Shown here piece after piece: positions 2,458 to 9,725 of a stretch of 36,129 bases of DNA. The notes under the pieces are model-generated. The model did not search any database, was not told the DNA's origin, and saw only the letters and a list, made by a program, of their open reading frames with translations. The stretch lies in contig JAACDW010000025.1 in NCBI GenBank assembly GCA_009936775.1, forward strand, positions 1 through 36,129, read 5' to 3'. Each line of letters starts with the position of its first letter. Positions within the stretch are counted from its first letter, which is position 1. Both the position numbers and the translations under genes were made by a program. This stretch comes from Pseudomonadota bacterium (GTDB lineage Bacteria > Pseudomonadota > Gammaproteobacteria > Pseudomonadales > Azotimanducaceae).

Positions 2458-3111
2458 CTAAATGAACCGTCCGTAACTTACTTTTTTTGCCCGCTCGAAA
2501 AATTCATCCCACTGTTCCTCAGTGAGTAGTTTGGGCTCGCCGAGTTGCCGCGTCAGCACATATTGCCGACACATAATTTCCAGCCGGTGCGCAAGGTTCA
2601 CTGCGCTCTTGAGGTTTTTGCCGCGGCAAATCATGCCGTGATTGCCCAGCAGACATGCTGTTCTGGTTGCTAGCGCCCGTGCTGCATCGTCACCCAGTGA
2701 CTGCGTGCCGAATGTCGAATAAGGCACGCAGGGCACATCGTTACCGCCGAATGAGCCGACCAAATAGTGGAAGCCGGGTAGCGGCATCAATTGTGAGGCC
2801 AGCGCCACGCAGTAATCTGAGTGGGTGTGCACTACTGCTTCAGCGCTTGGCTTTGCAAGGTACACGGCGGCGTGCATACGCCACTCGGATGAGGGTTTAC
2901 GGTCGCCTTCCCATTCACCATCCAATGACACACGAACAACGCTTTCCGGTGTGATGTTGTCGGCAGAGGCACCAGATGGAGAAATCAGCATGCCGTATTC
3001 AAAGCGACAGCTGAGGTTGCCTGATGACAATTCATTCAACCCAATCTGCTCAACGTATCGGTATTGCTCAGCTAGGTGTTCGCGTAACTGTTGTTCATTT
3101 TCAGAGGACAT
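2458..3111 (-). CDS. Class II aldolase/adducin family protein, OtnC-like
   Basis: This 217-residue soluble protein has the class II aldolase fold signature. Zn ligands are visible as H95-x-H97 (VVHTHSDYC) and H158 (GNHGM), with the acidic residue E76 in SSEWRMH. Length fits L-fuculose-phosphate aldolase and 3-oxo-tetronate-4-phosphate decarboxylase (OtnC). It lies 16 bases downstream of the OtnK-like kinase on the same strand, and kinase plus class II aldolase is the established pairing for catabolism of four-carbon acid sugars. OtnC is therefore the favoured reading: decarboxylation of 3-oxo-tetronate 4-phosphate to a triose phosphate. A generic sugar-phosphate aldolase remains possible. No dehydrogenase (LtnD/DtnA) or isomerase (OtnI) is seen in the window. 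Confidence 0.85.
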   Translation of the reverse strand: MSSENEQQLREHLAEQYRYVEQIGLNELSSGNLSCRFEYGMLISPSGASADNITPESVVRVSLDGEWEGDRKPSSEWRMHAAVYLAKPSAEAVVHTHSDYCVALASQLMPLPGFHYLVGSFGGNDVPCVPYSTFGTQSLGDDAARALATRTACLLGNHGMICRGKNLKSAVNLAHRLEIMCRQYVLTRQLGEPKLLTEEQWDEFFERAKKVSYGRFI

Positions 3112-3127
3112 AATTTACCTGTTGGTT

Positions 3128-4420
3128 TTATTCGTTTGCATCTGCTTCGCGCATGCGTTCAAGGGCTGTAAACATAAAGTCTTGGCCACCCAAGGCGCCA
3201 GCTTTCAGCACAAAGGACGTGGGTTCTGGGCCCGCCTGATGACAGTAGCCTCCGCTTAGGTTATCAAATGGTGCTACCTGCACTTGGGCGACGCCCAGCG
3301 ACGCGAAAACTTGACCCGATGTTTCGCCACCGGCGACCATAAACTTGCGTACGCCAAGCCGCTGCAAAATCACCGCTGCGTTGCCCAACAGTTCGTCCGC
3401 TAGCTCGGCGGCACCCTTTACACCTAATTCAGCTTGGGCGCGTTTCACGCCGTCGACATCGGCGGACGTCGTCACCGCTATGGGACCTTCGCCTAACCGT
3501 GGCGCGGCCCAATTTTCGAGTTCGGTTTCAAAGTGCTCTGTTGGGGCAAGCAAATCAATGCGATAAACTGGATGAGAGGCTTCAAAGTAATCCAATTGCG
3601 CTCTGGTTGCTTCGGCGCAGCTACCGGCGATGATCGCCTCGTAACCCGGTGAAGCTGGCAACAGGTGGGGTGTTTTGCTGGTTTGCGCAGTCTTCGCAGG
3701 GGCGGGGGCTGCGTCGCGCCATGCCCTGGCGAGAAACATAGGCAGGGCGTCCGCACCAGTTGTTAGCGGCCAGGCCAAGGTCAATTGCGCAATACTTGCC
3801 ACATCATCATTGTCCGCAGCATCGGTGACAAATAAACCAGTACCATCTGCAACCTGAGTATCGACGTACGCTTCTGCAGCTTCTTTGCCAGCAATGAGCC
3901 TGGAGTGGGGGATAACGCCTGCCTTGCCCTGGGTTTGTGCCGTCAGAACTTCCACTAAATTGGAATTCGTCATAGGGGTGACCGGATCAAAGCGTTTGCT
4001 GGACTCCCCCAGCATGATGTTGCCGAGAAACATCCGGCCCTGAAAAATTGTCACGCTGTATTCGGGAAACGCGGGGCAAAAAATTGTGCGGTCAGTGCCC
4101 AGCGTCGTCATCAGCGCCTCCGCAATGGGGCCAATGTTGCCTTCGTCTGTTGAATCAAAGGTCGCGCAATATTTGTAGTAGACTCTCTTGGCTCCGGCGG
4201 CGACAAGCCCCAACGCAGAGTTGTTGGCGTCCGCGACAGCGTCAGTTGGCGGGATCAGGCGGATTTTTCGACCAATTACTAAGGCTTCTGCACCGGACGG
4301 CACATCTGCGATTACCTCGGTGGACGTCACCAATGGACAGCGTACCCCCTCACGTTCGAGCAAGCTTGCGACCATCATGCCGCCGGTCAGGTCATCGGCA
4401 ATGACACCCAGTTCAATCAA
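3128..4420 (-). CDS. Four-carbon acid sugar kinase, OtnK-like
   Basis: The protein opens with IELGVIADDLTGG, the diagnostic N-terminal motif of four-carbon acid sugar kinases (3-oxo-tetronate kinase OtnK/DtnK/LtnK). The C-terminal nucleotide-binding domain has a GGETSGQVFASLG motif. The ORF track begins at 4567, but that adds ~49 residues with no family counterpart. A TTG at 4420 is preceded by AGGAG about eight bases upstream and gives 430 residues, the usual family length, so I choose it. An ATG at 4468 is the alternative. It likely forms an operon with the aldolase 16 bases downstream. The C-terminal region reads APFDNLSGGYCHQAGPEP where I recall many homologues having a GPEIDPGVP-like motif, so substrate preference may differ. 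Confidence 0.8.
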   Translation of the reverse strand: MIELGVIADDLTGGMMVASLLEREGVRCPLVTSTEVIADVPSGAEALVIGRKIRLIPPTDAVADANNSALGLVAAGAKRVYYKYCATFDSTDEGNIGPIAEALMTTLGTDRTIFCPAFPEYSVTIFQGRMFLGNIMLGESSKRFDPVTPMTNSNLVEVLTAQTQGKAGVIPHSRLIAGKEAAEAYVDTQVADGTGLFVTDAADNDDVASIAQLTLAWPLTTGADALPMFLARAWRDAAPAPAKTAQTSKTPHLLPASPGYEAIIAGSCAEATRAQLDYFEASHPVYRIDLLAPTEHFETELENWAAPRLGEGPIAVTTSADVDGVKRAQAELGVKGAAELADELLGNAAVILQRLGVRKFMVAGGETSGQVFASLGVAQVQVAPFDNLSGGYCHQAGPEPTSFVLKAGALGGQDFMFTALERMREADANE

Positions 4421-4750
4421 TGAGAGCTCTCCTAGAATCTTTGCTGAGCAGGGATCGGCATTTGATCCGCGCGGCACCATTAATCGCGCCAAAATATCGG
4501 CTTTGGCGCAATTGCAACGTTGCGCTGGAGCATAGAGAAGTTGCTCCTTTAAGTTCAAACCGAGCATTCAGGTTTGTCTGAAAGATCACCCAAAATGGCT
4601 GCGGCTGTGGATGAACTCGCCGAGACGACTTGCGCAGATCGGCGGCTGCACTGAACGGCTGGGTAATGGGTGAATGTCTGCCAGTTAGCGGTTGGAGCTT
4701 TTTGCCTCGGCACGTAATCTGAGCGACTTACAAGGTAAAGGAAGCGCGGC
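4421..4750. promoter_or_regulatory. Divergent intergenic region between otnK-like and cyclase genes
   Basis: About 330 bases separate the two divergent operons, so promoters for both should lie here. I see an inverted repeat TTCAG-N6-CTGAA at 4567-4582, a possible operator, but no convincing -35/-10 pair. The minus strand also carries a short SD-preceded ORF (AAAGGAG before MLQRNVAIAPK..., 17 codons). It could be a leader or chance. Nothing else is recognisable. Confidence 0.35.
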
Positions 4751-5566
4751 ATGTTCTCGTTGGACGGATATAAACTTGTTGATCTCAGTCCCCGAATTAG
4801 AGCTCGGGTGCATCGTGTTGATGGCACCATAGAAGAGGGTACAGTGGACCCTTACGGGCGTCCTTGGGTGATGCAGGAAGGCAGATTTGCCGGCGATAAT
4901 TCGCTCTACACCCTGTACTCGGCGCCTCAAGGCGACGCGGTATGGCATCAGGAAAGAATGACCTCGCATCACGGTGCACACGTGCAGGGCGGCAAAGGCC
5001 ATATCAGTCATTGGGTTGGCGCGTCGCCAGACATGCAAGGCCTTTGGGAGATGCCCGTGGAGACCTTGATGGGCGCCGCCGCCGTTTGCAATCTCTCCCA
5101 CTTGGAGCCGCGCACTTTGGGCGAAGGCGAAGAGTATCCGCTTGGTGAAGGCTATGCTCTACGCAGTAAGGCCGGAGAACTGCGCGGCGCAGAAATTAAG
5201 CCCGAGCATTTGGGCAACATTGCGCAAGGCGATATTGTGTTAATGACCAGTTCCCATGAAGGCTTGGAGCAACCTTGGTTGTCCCAGACTACGGTTGATT
5301 GGTTGATCAACGACCGTCAGATTAAAATGCTAGGGGTGAGCGCTACAGGTATTCAGTGGCAGTACGATCTTAAGCTGGCAGCGCCAGCAAACTCACCAAT
5401 CAGACGGATGTTGTTGGGGGCCAATGTGCCGATAGCCCACCCCTTGGTGAACATAGATCAATTGCAATCGGATCGAGTGTTCTATGTTGGGCTACCTCTG
5501 CGCATGCAGAAGTTTGAGGCAAGTTTTATCAGGGCAGTGGCGTATGAAGCCCCGGAGGAAGCGTAA
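4751..5566 (+). CDS. Cyclase-family (kynurenine formamidase-like) hydrolase, copy 1
   Basis: This 271-residue protein has the cyclase-family layout (PF04199: kynurenine formamidase KynB, isatin hydrolase). An N-terminal VDLSPRI strand is followed by the metal motif region SHHGAHVQGGKGH (residues 72-84). The family motif is HxGTHxDxPxH. Here H73, G75, H77 and H84 are kept, but the Asp is Gln79 and the Pro is lost. It contains an extra segment (about residues 105-130) relative to copy 2. The start ATG has AAGGAAG just upstream. Its stop overlaps the start of copy 2 by one base (TAATG), so the two are translationally coupled. The substrate is unknown; an amide or lactone bond is typical for the family. 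Divergent otnK/otnC suggests a shared catabolic theme, which is inference. Confidence 0.8.
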   Translation: MFSLDGYKLVDLSPRIRARVHRVDGTIEEGTVDPYGRPWVMQEGRFAGDNSLYTLYSAPQGDAVWHQERMTSHHGAHVQGGKGHISHWVGASPDMQGLWEMPVETLMGAAAVCNLSHLEPRTLGEGEEYPLGEGYALRSKAGELRGAEIKPEHLGNIAQGDIVLMTSSHEGLEQPWLSQTTVDWLINDRQIKMLGVSATGIQWQYDLKLAAPANSPIRRMLLGANVPIAHPLVNIDQLQSDRVFYVGLPLRMQKFEASFIRAVAYEAPEEA

Positions 5567-6306
5567 TGATCGATATGAAAAATACCCGCGTTGTCGATTT
5601 GACCTGGGAAATCACGTCCCGGCTGACACGATTGGACGGGTCCATAGAAGCGGGTACCCGGGATGTCTACAACATGCCTTGGATTGTGGAAGAAAGCATA
5701 AACGAACGTGACGGGACCATAGAGCATTTGGTTGGTAGTAATCGCCAGACCATTGCGGAATGGCCCATTGGTGGCGTCAGCGGGCATATGGGTTCGCACA
5801 TTCAGCTCGGTGTCGGCCACAACGACAACTGGACTTGCCTGCCCGAAGGCATGCTCGGCTTGTGGGATATGCCGCTCTCCACCTACTGTGGAGAAGCCGT
5901 GGTGTGCAAGCTAGACCATCTCGAGGGGCAGCCAATCTTGCCCGAGCATCTTGCCAACGTCAGAGAAGGCGACATTGTATTGTTGGGCAGCTCGCACAGT
6001 GGTGAGCAACAGCCCACTATCGTCGGCGACACCGCTGACTGGCTGGCAGAAGAAATGAAGATCAAGATGCTTGGCGTAGGCGTCCCCGGCATCTCTTGGG
6101 AAACCAATACCGACGCCCCCGAGCCAGGGAATTCGCCGACCCACCGCGCGATGACAGGGAACAACATCCCCATTCTGTATCCGTTGGTAAACATTGATAA
6201 ACTGACGCAGGAGCGCGTCTACGTGATGAGTTTTCCGTTGAACGTCGATCCGATGGAGGGCACTTGGGTACGTGCTGTAGCGGTGGAGGATACCTCCTCA
6301 GAGTAA
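5566..6306 (+). CDS. Cyclase-family hydrolase, copy 2 (paralogue of the preceding gene)
   Basis: The 246-residue protein is clearly paralogous to its upstream neighbour. Shared landmarks are VDLTWEI, the RLDGSIEAGTRD region, GLWDMPL, a GDIVLL/GDIVLM strand with SSH, and IKMLGVG. The metal motif is GHMGSHIQLGVGH (residues 73-85): H74, G76, H78 and H85 are present, with Gln80 replacing the family Asp, as in copy 1. The ATG overlaps the upstream TAA by one base and has GGAGGA seven bases before it; a second ATG three codons on is possible. Conservation of the same unusual Gln in both copies argues that it is functional. The pair may form a heteromeric enzyme or act on related substrates (inference). 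Confidence 0.8.
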   Translation: MIDMKNTRVVDLTWEITSRLTRLDGSIEAGTRDVYNMPWIVEESINERDGTIEHLVGSNRQTIAEWPIGGVSGHMGSHIQLGVGHNDNWTCLPEGMLGLWDMPLSTYCGEAVVCKLDHLEGQPILPEHLANVREGDIVLLGSSHSGEQQPTIVGDTADWLAEEMKIKMLGVGVPGISWETNTDAPEPGNSPTHRAMTGNNIPILYPLVNIDKLTQERVYVMSFPLNVDPMEGTWVRAVAVEDTSSE

Positions 6307-6761: not shown

Positions 6762-7118
6762 ATGCAGACCCATGAAGGCGGTTGCCACTGCGGCGCGGTG
6801 CGCTTCGCAGTAGAAATCGATTCACCAGTGACGGGCCTGTATCGTTGCAACTGCACGCTATGCCGTAAAAAAGGCATTGTCATGAAGGCGATACCGGACG
6901 CCGACTTCAGGTTGCTCTGTGGGGCCGAGCAACTCAGTCTTTACCAATGGAATAAACGCATCGCCGAGCATTTTTTTTGCACCATCTGCGGCGTCTATAC
7001 CCACCATCGCCGCCGCCGAGATGCCACCCAGTTCAGTATTAACATTGAGTGTCTAGATAATCAGCCGATGCCTTGTGAGGAAATGATTGGCCTCGCCAGT
7101 GGGCTTGAACACGATTGA
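6762..7118 (+). CDS. GFA/CENP-V-fold zinc protein
   Basis: This 118-residue protein has the GFA family cysteine pattern: GGCHCGAVRF at residues 7-16, CNCTLC in the 29-34 region, and a late CTICGVYTHH. These cysteines bind two zinc ions in glutathione-dependent formaldehyde-activating enzyme (Gfa) relatives. Most members of this broad family are not real formaldehyde enzymes, so catalytic activity is not implied. The start has AGGAG eight bases upstream. It is convergent with the enoyl-CoA hydratase gene, and the minus-strand terminator in between is nearly symmetric. Confidence 0.88.
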   Translation: MQTHEGGCHCGAVRFAVEIDSPVTGLYRCNCTLCRKKGIVMKAIPDADFRLLCGAEQLSLYQWNKRIAEHFFCTICGVYTHHRRRRDATQFSINIECLDNQPMPCEEMIGLASGLEHD

Positions 7119-7163
7119 GGTGGCTGGCGCTTGCGCAAGCGGCATTGAATGATTCTGCGGCAA

Positions 7164-7187
7164 CAAAAAAAGGGGCATGAAGCCCCT
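7164..7187 (-). terminator. Rho-independent terminator of the enoyl-CoA hydratase gene
   Basis: Read on the minus strand, AGGGGC-TTCAT-GCCCCT forms a six-base-pair stem followed by an uninterrupted T tract (A tract 7164-7171 on plus). It lies about 50 bases beyond the hydratase stop. On the plus strand the T tract is weak, so it mainly serves the leftward gene. Confidence 0.8.
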
Positions 7188-7236
7188 GTTTGCGTGCAGC
7201 GGATTTGTGCCGGCAAGCCGCTCTTCGGTGCCTGTT

Positions 7237-7998
7237 TTAGGTACCAGTCCAGTTTGGGGCGCGTTTTTCGGCAAAAGCAACCGGGCCTTCCTTGGCGTCA
7301 TTGGAACTGAATACCGACTTTTGCAGTGGTACCTGCATCTCCCAGAGCTTGTCTTCCTCGATACCGCTGGCGGCGGCTCGTACGAGGGATTTCGAGGCAT
7401 TTACAGCCAGTGGTGCGTTTTCAGCAATTCGTTCCGCCAGCGCAATTGCGGCATCAAGCGCCTCGCCTGATTCGGTTATGGCACTAAGCAGGCCAGCTTC
7501 CATGGCCTCTTCTGCGCTTATGGGTTCTCCCGTTAATGCCATTTCCATTGCCTTGGCGTAACCAACTCTGGCGGGCAGTCGGAATACGCCACCTGCCGCG
7601 GCAAATAACCCTACTTTTACTTCGCGGATACCGATTTTTGCACCCTTGGCAGCGACGATGAGGTCGCAGGTCAGCATAACTTCGCAGCCGCCAGCTAGGG
7701 CGAAGCCATTTACCGCCGCAATCAATGGCTTGTTGGCACCGCTGCGCACGAACTGATTCAGCGGGCCGATGTCTTCACCGCGGGCAAAGGCCTTGAGATC
7801 CATGCCGGCGCAAAAAGCCCTACCGTTACCGGTAATAACGCCCGCAGTTAAAGTATCGTCAGCATCGAGCTCTTGAACGGCAGTCCATAGGCCGTTGGAC
7901 AATGCGCCATTGATGGCATTCATTGCTTCGGGGCGGTTTAGCGTGATCACCAAGATGCGCCCGCGGCGCTCGACGATTACTGCTTGTTCCTCGCTCAT
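7237..7998 (-). CDS. Enoyl-CoA hydratase/isomerase (crotonase) family protein
   Basis: The 253-residue length is standard for crotonases. The oxyanion-hole segments are visible as FCAGMDLKAF (about 62-71) and AVNGFALAGGCE (95-106). The two glutamates used by true hydratases are both present: E106 in GGCE and E126 in IREVKVG, spaced 20 residues apart as in rat mitochondrial hydratase (E144/E164). Hydration of 2-enoyl-CoA in fatty-acid or similar acyl-CoA breakdown is likely, but crotonases vary widely in substrate. A strong AAGGAGAG lies just upstream of the ATG. It appears to be a single-gene unit ending in its own terminator. Confidence 0.88.
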   Translation of the reverse strand: MSEEQAVIVERRGRILVITLNRPEAMNAINGALSNGLWTAVQELDADDTLTAGVITGNGRAFCAGMDLKAFARGEDIGPLNQFVRSGANKPLIAAVNGFALAGGCEVMLTCDLIVAAKGAKIGIREVKVGLFAAAGGVFRLPARVGYAKAMEMALTGEPISAEEAMEAGLLSAITESGEALDAAIALAERIAENAPLAVNASKSLVRAAASGIEEDKLWEMQVPLQKSVFSSNDAKEGPVAFAEKRAPNWTGT

Positions 7999-8051
7999 TA
8001 CTCTCTCCTTAGTTTTGGGTCAGACCCGAGCATCGCATAACTGGCCGTGAA

Positions 8052-8077
8052 GCAAAACGCTGCCGTTCGGTAACAGC
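8052..8077 (-). terminator. Possible terminator of the metal operon
   Basis: On the minus strand GCTGTT-ACCG-AACGGC can pair over six positions with one G-U pair, followed by AGCGTTTTGCTT. It lies just after the CsoR-like stop. The T tract is interrupted, so this is only a candidate. Confidence 0.4.
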
Positions 8078-8083
8078 CCCCAC

Positions 8084-8344
8084 TTAGCGCTTCAAAACCT
8101 TGAGAAGTTCCTCGACTTTCGCATCGAAGTCGTCTGTTGCGGCTAATGACCCGCGAACGCAGGCGTTCAGGTGGGTCTCAAGAACCTTTCCCTCTACCGT
8201 TGAAAGTGCCTTCCTGATCGCCTTAAGTTGATTGAGGACGTCGACACAGTACTTTTCTTCTTCAATCATCTTTGCGACGCCGCGGACTTGGCCTTCGATA
8301 CGCCGCATATTGGGCAGCAACTGAGTATGGTTGGGGTGTTTCAT
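8084..8344 (-). CDS. CsoR-like metal-sensing repressor (DUF156 family)
   Basis: The real protein is the 86-residue C-terminal part of the long ORF, starting with MKHPNHTQ at 8344; the upstream 104 residues overlap the MerT-like gene out of frame. The four-helix DUF156 pattern is clear (RRIEGQVRGV near residues 14-23). The copper fingerprint of CsoR is complete: C33, H58 and C62 have the spacing of C36/H61/C65 in M. tuberculosis CsoR, and Y32 and E78 occupy the second-shell positions. This points to a Cu(I)-type repressor rather than RcnR (Ni/Co) or FrmR. It is the last gene of the operon it probably controls; a matching palindrome overlies the operon start at 9718-9734. Mercury or another soft metal is not excluded. 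Confidence 0.88.
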   Translation of the reverse strand: MKHPNHTQLLPNMRRIEGQVRGVAKMIEEEKYCVDVLNQLKAIRKALSTVEGKVLETHLNACVRGSLAATDDFDAKVEELLKVLKR

Positions 8345-8346
8345 AG

Positions 8347-8727
8347 TCAAAAAACTCGTGGAACGATGTAGGTAAACACAGTGGCAAAGCAAAACAGACC
8401 CACCGAGCCAAAGTAAATGTAACGCCCGCGCTGCCTCGTTTTCAAACATGCGCGCCCAAGCTCCGGGTCTGCCGGGCAGGGCATGCGCGCAGTCTTGTAG
8501 TTTAGCCAGCCTGCCAGCGTAATGCCCGCGAGTGCAGCCAAGGAAATCGCTACTTTGTGTTGAGAAAGCGTGATCAAAAACGGAAATACGGTCAACAAAC
8601 TGGCGAAGCTCGCGCCAGCCCCGAGTACGACAAACAACGAGGGTAACGCGCAGCAAATGAGCGTTGAAGACGAGGCAAAAAGAGAAAAATAGTTGGCGGT
8701 CTTGGTGTTGACTGTACTGGCGTTCAT
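8347..8727 (-). CDS. MerT-like inner-membrane metal transport protein
   Basis: This 126-residue protein shows about three membrane segments. The first contains a vicinal cysteine pair (ICCALPSLFVVLGAG, C25/C26) like the TM1 cysteines of mercuric transporter MerT. A second pair, C84 and C94 (MPCPADPELGRAC), lies in a loop, again like MerT. MerT moves Hg(II) inward from MerP; here the neighbours fit copper or broad soft-metal handling, so the direction and ion are uncertain. The start overlaps the stop of the HMA gene by four bases (ATGA). The CsoR-like gene follows after two bases. The tight coupling supports one transcript. No merA or merR is seen. Confidence 0.75.
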   Translation of the reverse strand: MNASTVNTKTANYFSLFASSSTLICCALPSLFVVLGAGASFASLLTVFPFLITLSQHKVAISLAALAGITLAGWLNYKTARMPCPADPELGRACLKTRQRGRYIYFGSVGLFCFATVFTYIVPRVF

Positions 8728-9113
8728 ATTTTCTTTACCAGCACGTCGGTAACGTTTTGACCGTTGGCCAAGATTTTTTTCTCAATATCCTGCCGGTCGA
8801 CCAGAGCGTCAGGCGTATAGGCGATTAGCACTTGGCCATTGCCCAAATCTACATCGATTTTGGTTACCGTTTTGTCGCGCTTAAAGGTTTTTTCTATGCC
8901 TCTCGCGCAGAAATCGCAGACCATGCCTAACACGCTAACGACGGCAATTTGAGCGCTGCCCAGGCCGTTTGTAAATTGGTTAAGCCGGGGCTCATCGAAC
9001 TCGACCTGTTGGCCACTGATCTGATGTTGGTGTGTTGCATGGTCGTGTTGGTCGGCGATTTCCGCGAACCCTGGCGCAGCAACAAGTAACAGTATAAGTG
9101 ATAGTTTATGCAT
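8724..9113 (-). CDS. Periplasmic heavy-metal-associated (HMA) domain protein, MerP-like
   Basis: The 129-residue product has a Sec signal peptide (LILLLVAAPGFA, cleavage near residue 17) and a His-rich stretch (DQHDHATHQHQ, residues 21-31). It ends in an HMA ferredoxin-like domain (about 55-129) with the metal loop GMVCDFC (C66/C69), a variant of GMTCxxC. It probably captures a soft metal in the periplasm and passes it to the MerT-like partner whose start codon overlaps its stop. The His-rich N-terminus is an extra metal-binding site not found in classical MerP. It lies nine bases from the preceding outer-membrane protein gene. Confidence 0.8.
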   Translation of the reverse strand: MHKLSLILLLVAAPGFAEIADQHDHATHQHQISGQQVEFDEPRLNQFTNGLGSAQIAVVSVLGMVCDFCARGIEKTFKRDKTVTKIDVDLGNGQVLIAYTPDALVDRQDIEKKILANGQNVTDVLVKKI

Positions 9114-9122
9114 ATCTTTCCT

Positions 9123-9725
9123 CTAGAAACGTCGTACTAAATGAATGTCCCACTCGGCCTTAGGGTGATAGCCGAACTCCACCAGAAAGCCGCCTTTAAA
9201 AAATTTTAATACTGGATAGACGGACCAACTGTCATAGCCCGTGTTGTTGCGAGCTTTAATCATCAGCCAGGTGTGCAGGTCCCCGTACTCACCTACGTAG
9301 GGAGCTACCCCTAACTGCAGGTACTGGTCGTCGTAGTCACCCTTGCGGGTTTTGGTGTGTTGGTAACTAAAGCCCGCAAACCAGCGACGAGTCTCCCAGT
9401 CGCCGAATATGCCATAGAAATGTTCGTCCAAACCTCGAGAACTGAGGCCCGAATGCAAATACAAATTGCGCTGTGAGTGCCGGGTGTTCTTGCGGTTCAG
9501 TAGGTAGGTAGCTCGCGCATAGGCGTGGTCGCCATCGCCTTGTTTTTCGGTAATTGCTTCGATGCCCAGCGAGTACTTAAACGTGGGCGAGTAGTGGTAG
9601 TAAACCGAGTTCTTGTATCGATCAGAAAACCCCATGAGGGTGGAGCCGCCGGAGTAGGAGATAGGTCTTGCGGCCAAAATTGGCGACAACAGACAAAGCA
9701 GGATAGTGAAAGTTTTGATACCCAT
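9123..9725 (-). CDS. Putative outer-membrane beta-barrel protein of the metal operon
   Basis: I choose the ATG at 9725, giving 200 residues with a signal peptide (TFTILLCLLSPILA, cleavage near residue 18). The 73 extra residues in the ORF track are not signal-like and run through the promoter. The mature part is rich in Tyr, Trp and Gly in alternating strand patterns (YYHYSPTFKYSLGIEAI, RRWFAGFSYQHTKT) and ends in a C-terminal Phe (IHLVRRF). That is the hallmark of a small outer-membrane barrel of about eight to ten strands. I do not know a named family. As first gene of the operon it may admit or export the metal, or protect the envelope. No Shine-Dalgarno precedes the ATG; see the promoter entry. 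Confidence 0.65.
   Translation of the reverse strand: MGIKTFTILLCLLSPILAARPISYSGGSTLMGFSDRYKNSVYYHYSPTFKYSLGIEAITEKQGDGDHAYARATYLLNRKNTRHSQRNLYLHSGLSSRGLDEHFYGIFGDWETRRWFAGFSYQHTKTRKGDYDDQYLQLGVAPYVGEYGDLHTWLMIKARNNTGYDSWSVYPVLKFFKGGFLVEFGYHPKAEWDIHLVRRF

Follow-up and report, generated by a model that had tools for sequence, protein, structure and literature searches.

The window, i.e., the whole stretch of 36,129 nucleotides that was analyzed, carries two adjacent paralogous genes, cycA and cycB, together with a kinase gene and an aldolase-family gene located on the other strand:

2458-3111, minus strand: FucA/OtnC-like member of the class II aldolase family, partner of the kinase; PF00596, 166 bits
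3128-4567, minus strand: OtnK-like 3-oxo-tetronate kinase (SBD_N and NBD_C domains), divergent from cycA; NF043035, 333 bits for a cut-off of 350
4751-5566, plus strand: cycA, KynB/cyclase-fold protein of 271 amino acids; orthologues in all 27 loci of the collection
5554-5568, plus strand: cycA-cycB junction, with a GGAGG Shine-Dalgarno motif within the 3' end of cycA and a TAATG stop/start overlap
5566-6306, plus strand: cycB, KynB/cyclase-fold protein of 246 amino acids; PF04199 match

The stop codon of cycA and the start codon of cycB have one base in common (junction sequence GGAGGAAGCGTAATGATC) and translational coupling of the two genes is expected. The encoded proteins share 39% identity over 267 aligned columns (E = 7e-66). 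A preliminary description of this DNA had reported two translationally coupled, diverged tandem paralogues with motif residues H73/H77/Q79/H84 and H74/H78/Q80/H85, and all of this, ORF coordinates included, was recovered. When each gene is compared with its closest relative, dN/dS is about 0.06 for CycA (dN 0.10, dS about 1.5) and about 0.04 for CycB (dN 0.07, dS about 1.8). Purifying selection acts strongly on both genes.

Profile searches place the two proteins in a known superfamily. CycB matches Pfam PF04199 just above threshold (23.9 bits, cut-off 23.1); CycA has no Pfam match by itself. Aligned to ordinary cyclases with hhalign, CycA and CycB reach probabilities of 98.6 and 99.0%, respectively, and the values obtained for CycA, CycB and both combined range from 98.6 to 99.3%. 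In Foldseek, the AlphaFold model of CycB, which is poor around the metal motif, matched 3krv, 8hmo, isatin hydrolases and KynB with a probability of 1.00; the CycA model was unusable (pLDDT 34). Among sequences of solved structures, isatin hydrolases are the nearest to CycA and CycB (E values from 2e-4 to 2e-3). CycA and CycB thus belong to the PF04199 cyclase superfamily and have the KynB fold, as established by profile-profile match and, for CycB, also by the model. Against the KynB equivalog TIGR03035, the two proteins score 12.4 and 22.9 bits, for a cut-off of 223. The host genome also encodes one ordinary PF04199 protein with an HNGTHMDAPWH motif, showing that the host uses the standard form as well.

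The metal motif reads H73-H-G-A-H77-V-Q79-G-G-K-G-H84 in CycA and H74-M-G-S-H78-I-Q80-L-G-V-G-H85 in CycB. In profile alignments, the glutamine falls on the column of KynB Asp56, a residue strictly conserved across 336 KynB-like sequences (PMC4243253). A set of 65 ordinary PF04199 proteins was drawn from the host's class, one of them (L035) from a separate search; in this set the column contains 60 Asp, 4 Glu, one gap and no Gln. The glutamine is invariant in 37/37 CycA and 36/36 CycB sequences, which argues against chance; none of these 73 sequences shows the acidic residue or the proline of the HxG[T/A]HxDxPxH motif. Replacement of histidines is found in ordinary PF04199 branches, where glutamine occupies the two motif His positions in 13/65 and 10/65 sequences. 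In CycA and CycB the later histidine is at +11 from the first one, not +10. Because of the profile-profile alignment and of their invariance, His84 and His85 are identified as the equivalents of the catalytic His60 of KynB, with a one-residue insertion. His87 of CycA, which phmmer aligns to the SHW of isatin hydrolase, was considered for this role and rejected, since CycB has Asn there, His84/His85 are invariant and hhalign prefers them. An Asp hidden at the site by the MAFFT alignment was also rejected, the column being anchored on its left by HxGxH. The loop that follows HxGxH contains no conserved acid common to CycA and CycB.

The Gln motif is therefore genuine and strongly conserved, and it differs from the motif variants so far described for the KynB fold. 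The distinct subfamily suggested in the preliminary description is borne out by a 100/100 branch apart from the ordinary cyclases. Gln is absent from the 65 ordinary proteins and is the residue at the Asp column in every pair member, with no other Asp at the site. As for the Asp-to-Gln change itself, its location on the Asp56 column stands; its wording needs revision in view of a third type of sequence. Among 201 genomes of the host family, three loci (L171, L173, L174) contain a single gene without partner, having an HxGxHTE motif:

L171, 6017-6808: unpaired Glu-type cousin
L173, 3111-3908: unpaired Glu-type cousin
L174, 4775-5572: unpaired Glu-type cousin

Like the pair, these cousins belong to the same family (full-length HMM scores of 265-313 bits), have the one-residue insertion and resemble CycB in the His and Tyr of their second site. 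Unlike the pair, they have Glu for Gln and are single genes. At the scored positions, Glu to Gln is the only difference between them and CycB, and the codons, GAG/GAA in the cousins and CAG/CAA in the pair, are one base apart. Because the unpaired cousins carry Glu, the change is better seen as the loss of an acidic ligand through Glu (GAR to CAR). In an unrooted tree, CycA, CycB and the single type are three lineages joining near one point. Rooting by ordinary cyclases was tried and set aside, because of a long-branch warning with the root falling inside the CycB sequences. With an outgroup too distant for rooting, the glutamine may have arisen once, before the split of CycA and CycB, or twice.

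The two copies are not equivalent. In the hhalign register, the places of KynB His161 and Glu173 are taken by His193 and Tyr205 in CycB, and by Arg218 and His230 in CycA; neither protein has this second-zinc ligand pair. None of the six scored positions varies in CycB over the family. In CycA, Arg or Lys stands for His161 and His or Gln for Glu173, and Tyr even replaces His77 in two sequences. CycA has thus lost the His of the second site and, in some sequences, one of the first site, whereas CycB keeps both; no sequence of either protein lacks the first motif His or the catalytic one. Given the invariance of CycB and the variation of CycA, CycB seems to be the subunit on which catalytic constraint acts in full, and CycA a partner whose own site is being lost. 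Judging from these residues, the binuclear zinc site described for KynB is not expected to form in CycA or in CycB, since both proteins have lost the bridging Asp as well as the Glu.

In the genome collection, the pair was found at 27 loci, always in the order cycA then cycB, with 58-90% identity to CycB. The paralogous pairs of loci L175-L180 are likewise ordered, and some genomes have two pairs, or one pair and the single type. Among the 201 host-family genomes, no complete CycA or CycB was found as an orphan, the exceptions being truncations at contig ends. Co-occurrence of the two paralogous genes is thus obligate throughout the 27 loci, the 201 genomes and the paralogous pairs, and such strict pairing would fit a heteromer. 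A sample of the order yielded one further genome, again from the same bacterial family. Beyond that family, the samples of the phylum and of the class gave no close homologue, the one weak match being an ordinary cyclase. In these searches, the pair is thus confined to a single bacterial family.

The gene neighborhood is also conserved. The aldolase gene adjoins the pair in 23/27 loci, and the kinase is present too in 21 of these. Kinase, aldolase, cycA and cycB follow one another on one strand at 17 of the 27 loci; at four, kinase and aldolase are convergent downstream of the pair; at two, the aldolase stands alone at a contig end, the kinase being cut off. The divergent arrangement of the window is a third orientation. 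In L002, about 6.6 kb of the same contig separate kinase and aldolase from the pair. Genome-wide, the kinase occurs in 26/29 CycB-bearing genomes versus 11/172 others (Fisher p = 7e-21 over the 201 genomes, relatedness being ignored). The paralogous pairs of L175-L179 are not beside a kinase and have different neighbors, which suggests that the pair is a portable unit and that the substrate link is limited to one lineage of pairs. With regard to named functions, the aldolase stays under all NCBIfam cut-offs (OtnC, 116 of 250 bits; FucA subfamily, 178 of 264 bits). The real start of the kinase is probably the TTG at 4420, behind AGGAG, because kinase orthologues begin there. The ATG start (window 3128-4567, minus strand) gives about 50 extra residues absent from relatives; the TTG start leaves about 330 bases ahead of cycA.

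Several other features were observed in these neighborhoods. A second kinase and class II aldolase pair, without cyclase genes, lies at 17083-19037 of L107, the longer contig to which L012 belongs; a distance of about 8 kb separates it from the kinase and aldolase linked to the cyclases, and the L018 locus has a second kinase gene at its end. In L175 (2855-6550) and L176 (6162-12246), the paralogous Gln-type pair accompanies a C45/AAT-family acyltransferase-like protein (PF03417); glyoxalase-like and thiamine-diphosphate enzyme-like proteins, assigned by eye, are also nearby, and not a kinase. Related PEP-utilizing/PPDK-domain proteins stand on either side of the pair in L002 (2168-5002, plus strand; 6832-9642, minus strand), and other loci have similar proteins close to the pair or to the single type. 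A family of about 200-230 amino acids, with GEFGS-x-x-W-x-x-AC near the N terminus and no Pfam or NCBIfam match among the members tested, recurs by cyclase-pair, single-cyclase or kinase genes. In several genomes, YejABE-like transporter genes lie close to the kinase or to the cyclase pair, SBP_bac_5 being confirmed in L110:

L110, 797-1477, plus strand: GEFGS-x-x-W-x-x-AC family
L173, 4313-4924, minus strand: GEFGS-x-x-W-x-x-AC family
L174, 3602-4357, plus strand: GEFGS-x-x-W-x-x-AC family
L180, 9060-9722, plus strand: GEFGS-x-x-W-x-x-AC family
L107, 13649-15526, plus strand: YejABE-like transporter genes
L110, 1512-5584, minus strand: YejABE-like transporter genes
L179, 116-4196, plus strand: YejABE-like transporter genes

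We tentatively propose, at slightly less than an even chance, that CycA and CycB form a heteromeric KynB-fold hydrolase, with CycB as catalytic subunit and CycA as its partner, opening a lactone, an ester or an amide upstream of the kinase. The gene of a KynB-fold hydrolase would have duplicated into cycA and cycB, giving two unlike subunits of one enzyme. CycB, which keeps both motif histidines, the catalytic-base histidine and the second-site histidine, would perform catalysis, one divalent metal being held in a mononuclear, charge-neutral site formed by His74, His78 and Gln80, with His85 as the base that activates water. CycA would mainly complete the dimer, and the Arg or Lys at its second-metal position (Arg218) may provide a positive charge binding the carboxylate of an acidic substrate. 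Hydrolysis would then supply a C4 (oxo)acid to the OtnK-like kinase and the class II aldolase. Amide, ester and lactone hydrolysis are the reactions known in the PF04199 family (PMC6117287, PMC4243253, PMC5341072), and a C4 oxo-acid is a product on which the kinase and aldolase could act. KynB itself is active as a dimer in which each active site receives a contribution from the partner (PMC4243253), and an active, metal-stimulated PF04199 esterase has Gln at both His positions (QxxxQxDxxxH; PMC5341072). It should, however, be noted that this esterase, MGS0169, keeps and needs its Asp, so that loss of the Asp could mean loss of metal and activity.

An alternative reading is that metal-dependent hydrolysis was lost and that the pair consists of pseudoenzymes or binding proteins, for instance a sensor or a chaperone for a pathway intermediate. 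The sole acidic ligand is indeed gone in both proteins, KynB Glu173 is replaced by Tyr in CycB and His/Gln in CycA, Asp56 is strictly conserved in KynB-like sequences (PMC4243253) and MGS0169 activity depends on Asp133 (PMC5341072). Nevertheless, the four histidines and the glutamine of CycB are invariant in all sequences scored, with the low dN/dS given above, and retention of a catalytic-base His is unexpected for a mere binding protein; we consider such a loss of function improbable. Somewhat better placed, though still unlikely, is the possibility that CycA and CycB are independent homodimeric KynB-fold metal hydrolases acting on related substrates, with Gln, as a conservative replacement, still binding Mn or Zn and co-location reflecting no more than a shared pathway. 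Conservation of the first motif His and of the catalytic His in both proteins would agree with it, KynB and isatin hydrolases are homodimers (PMC4243253, PMC6117287), and partial coordination of Mn by Gln219 of LaIHA means that amide ligands occur in the fold (PMC6117287). Two independent enzymes fit less well with a 1:1 pairing that is strict in every lineage, paralogous pairs included, with the marked asymmetry of the second site and with the His77-to-Tyr change of some CycA.

The pair could also carry out a non-hydrolytic step missing from the tetronate pathway, such as an OtnI-type isomerization of 2-oxo- to 3-oxo-tetronate. OtnI belongs to PF01261; no PF01261 protein was found in the host genome (93.9% complete), although 13/14 control genomes have one, and an OtnK-like kinase with its aldolase-family partner is present. 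In the known four-step pathway, the OtnI isomerase is required and comes ahead of the kinase (PMC12540250). This isomerase hypothesis has to face the incompleteness of the genome, kinase and aldolase scores under the curated OtnK/OtnC cut-offs, so that the substrate may not be tetronate, and the second kinase and aldolase pair without cyclases in L107. Moreover, no isomerase is known in the KynB fold, and we consider this explanation highly improbable. Returning to the heteromeric hydrolase, since no PF01261 protein was found, one may speculate that the entry point into the pathway differs from the OtnI route, a lactone being opened straight to the kinase substrate. A more precise version, to which only a small probability is given, is that the heteromer, composed of a catalytic and a degenerate paralogue and having a neutral His-His-Gln center, delivers 3-oxo-tetronate directly to the kinase, e.g., from a hydroxytetronic-acid-type lactone. 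If so, these bacteria would need neither tetronate dehydrogenase nor OtnI. Two full-score NAD_binding_2 dehydrogenases are encoded elsewhere in the host genome.

The literature gave nothing relevant on a cyclase-kinase-aldolase system. The pair with its kinase and aldolase suggests that uncultured marine Gammaproteobacteria have a route for the catabolism of sugar acids or lactones that is still undescribed. The acidic ligand was a supposed fixed point of the KynB fold, and this clade removed it in both members of the pair. Side by side with surviving Glu cousins in the same bacteria, the Gln clade represents a natural experiment on the role of the carboxylate; it may also inform on how a homodimeric enzyme turns into a heteromer.

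Among characterized systems, KynB (BaKynB, PDB 4CO9) shares with the pair its fold and an HxGxHx-acid...H site in which His50, His54 and the catalytic His60 are conserved. It differs by Asp56, Gln in the pair, by His161/Glu173, which become His/Tyr in CycB and Arg-Lys/His-Gln in CycA, and by a single gene instead of two unlike paralogues, with an identity of about 18-24% at most. The isatin hydrolases LaIHA, LaIHB and RsIHA (5NNA, 4J0N, 5NMP), the best sequence matches among solved structures, illustrate a mononuclear Mn version of the fold; unlike the pair, their HxG[T/A]HxDxPxH motif keeps the Asp. Their second position is Gln219 in isatin hydrolase A and Ala224 in LaIHB, and Tyr or His in the pair (PMC6117287). 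In place of their GLQC/GLAS motif, CycA has I-A-H-P-L and CycB I-L-Y-P-L. Finally, MGS0169 and trans-dienelactone hydrolase (PF04199, QxxxQxDxxxH) resemble the pair in bearing Gln in the metal motif, and this PF04199 branch is still an active metal-dependent esterase/lactonase (PMC5341072). Asp133 of MGS0169 is needed even in this Gln-Gln-Asp context (PMC5341072). In these enzymes two His are changed to Gln and the Asp is kept, whereas the pair shows the reverse, both His being kept and the Asp being replaced by Gln.
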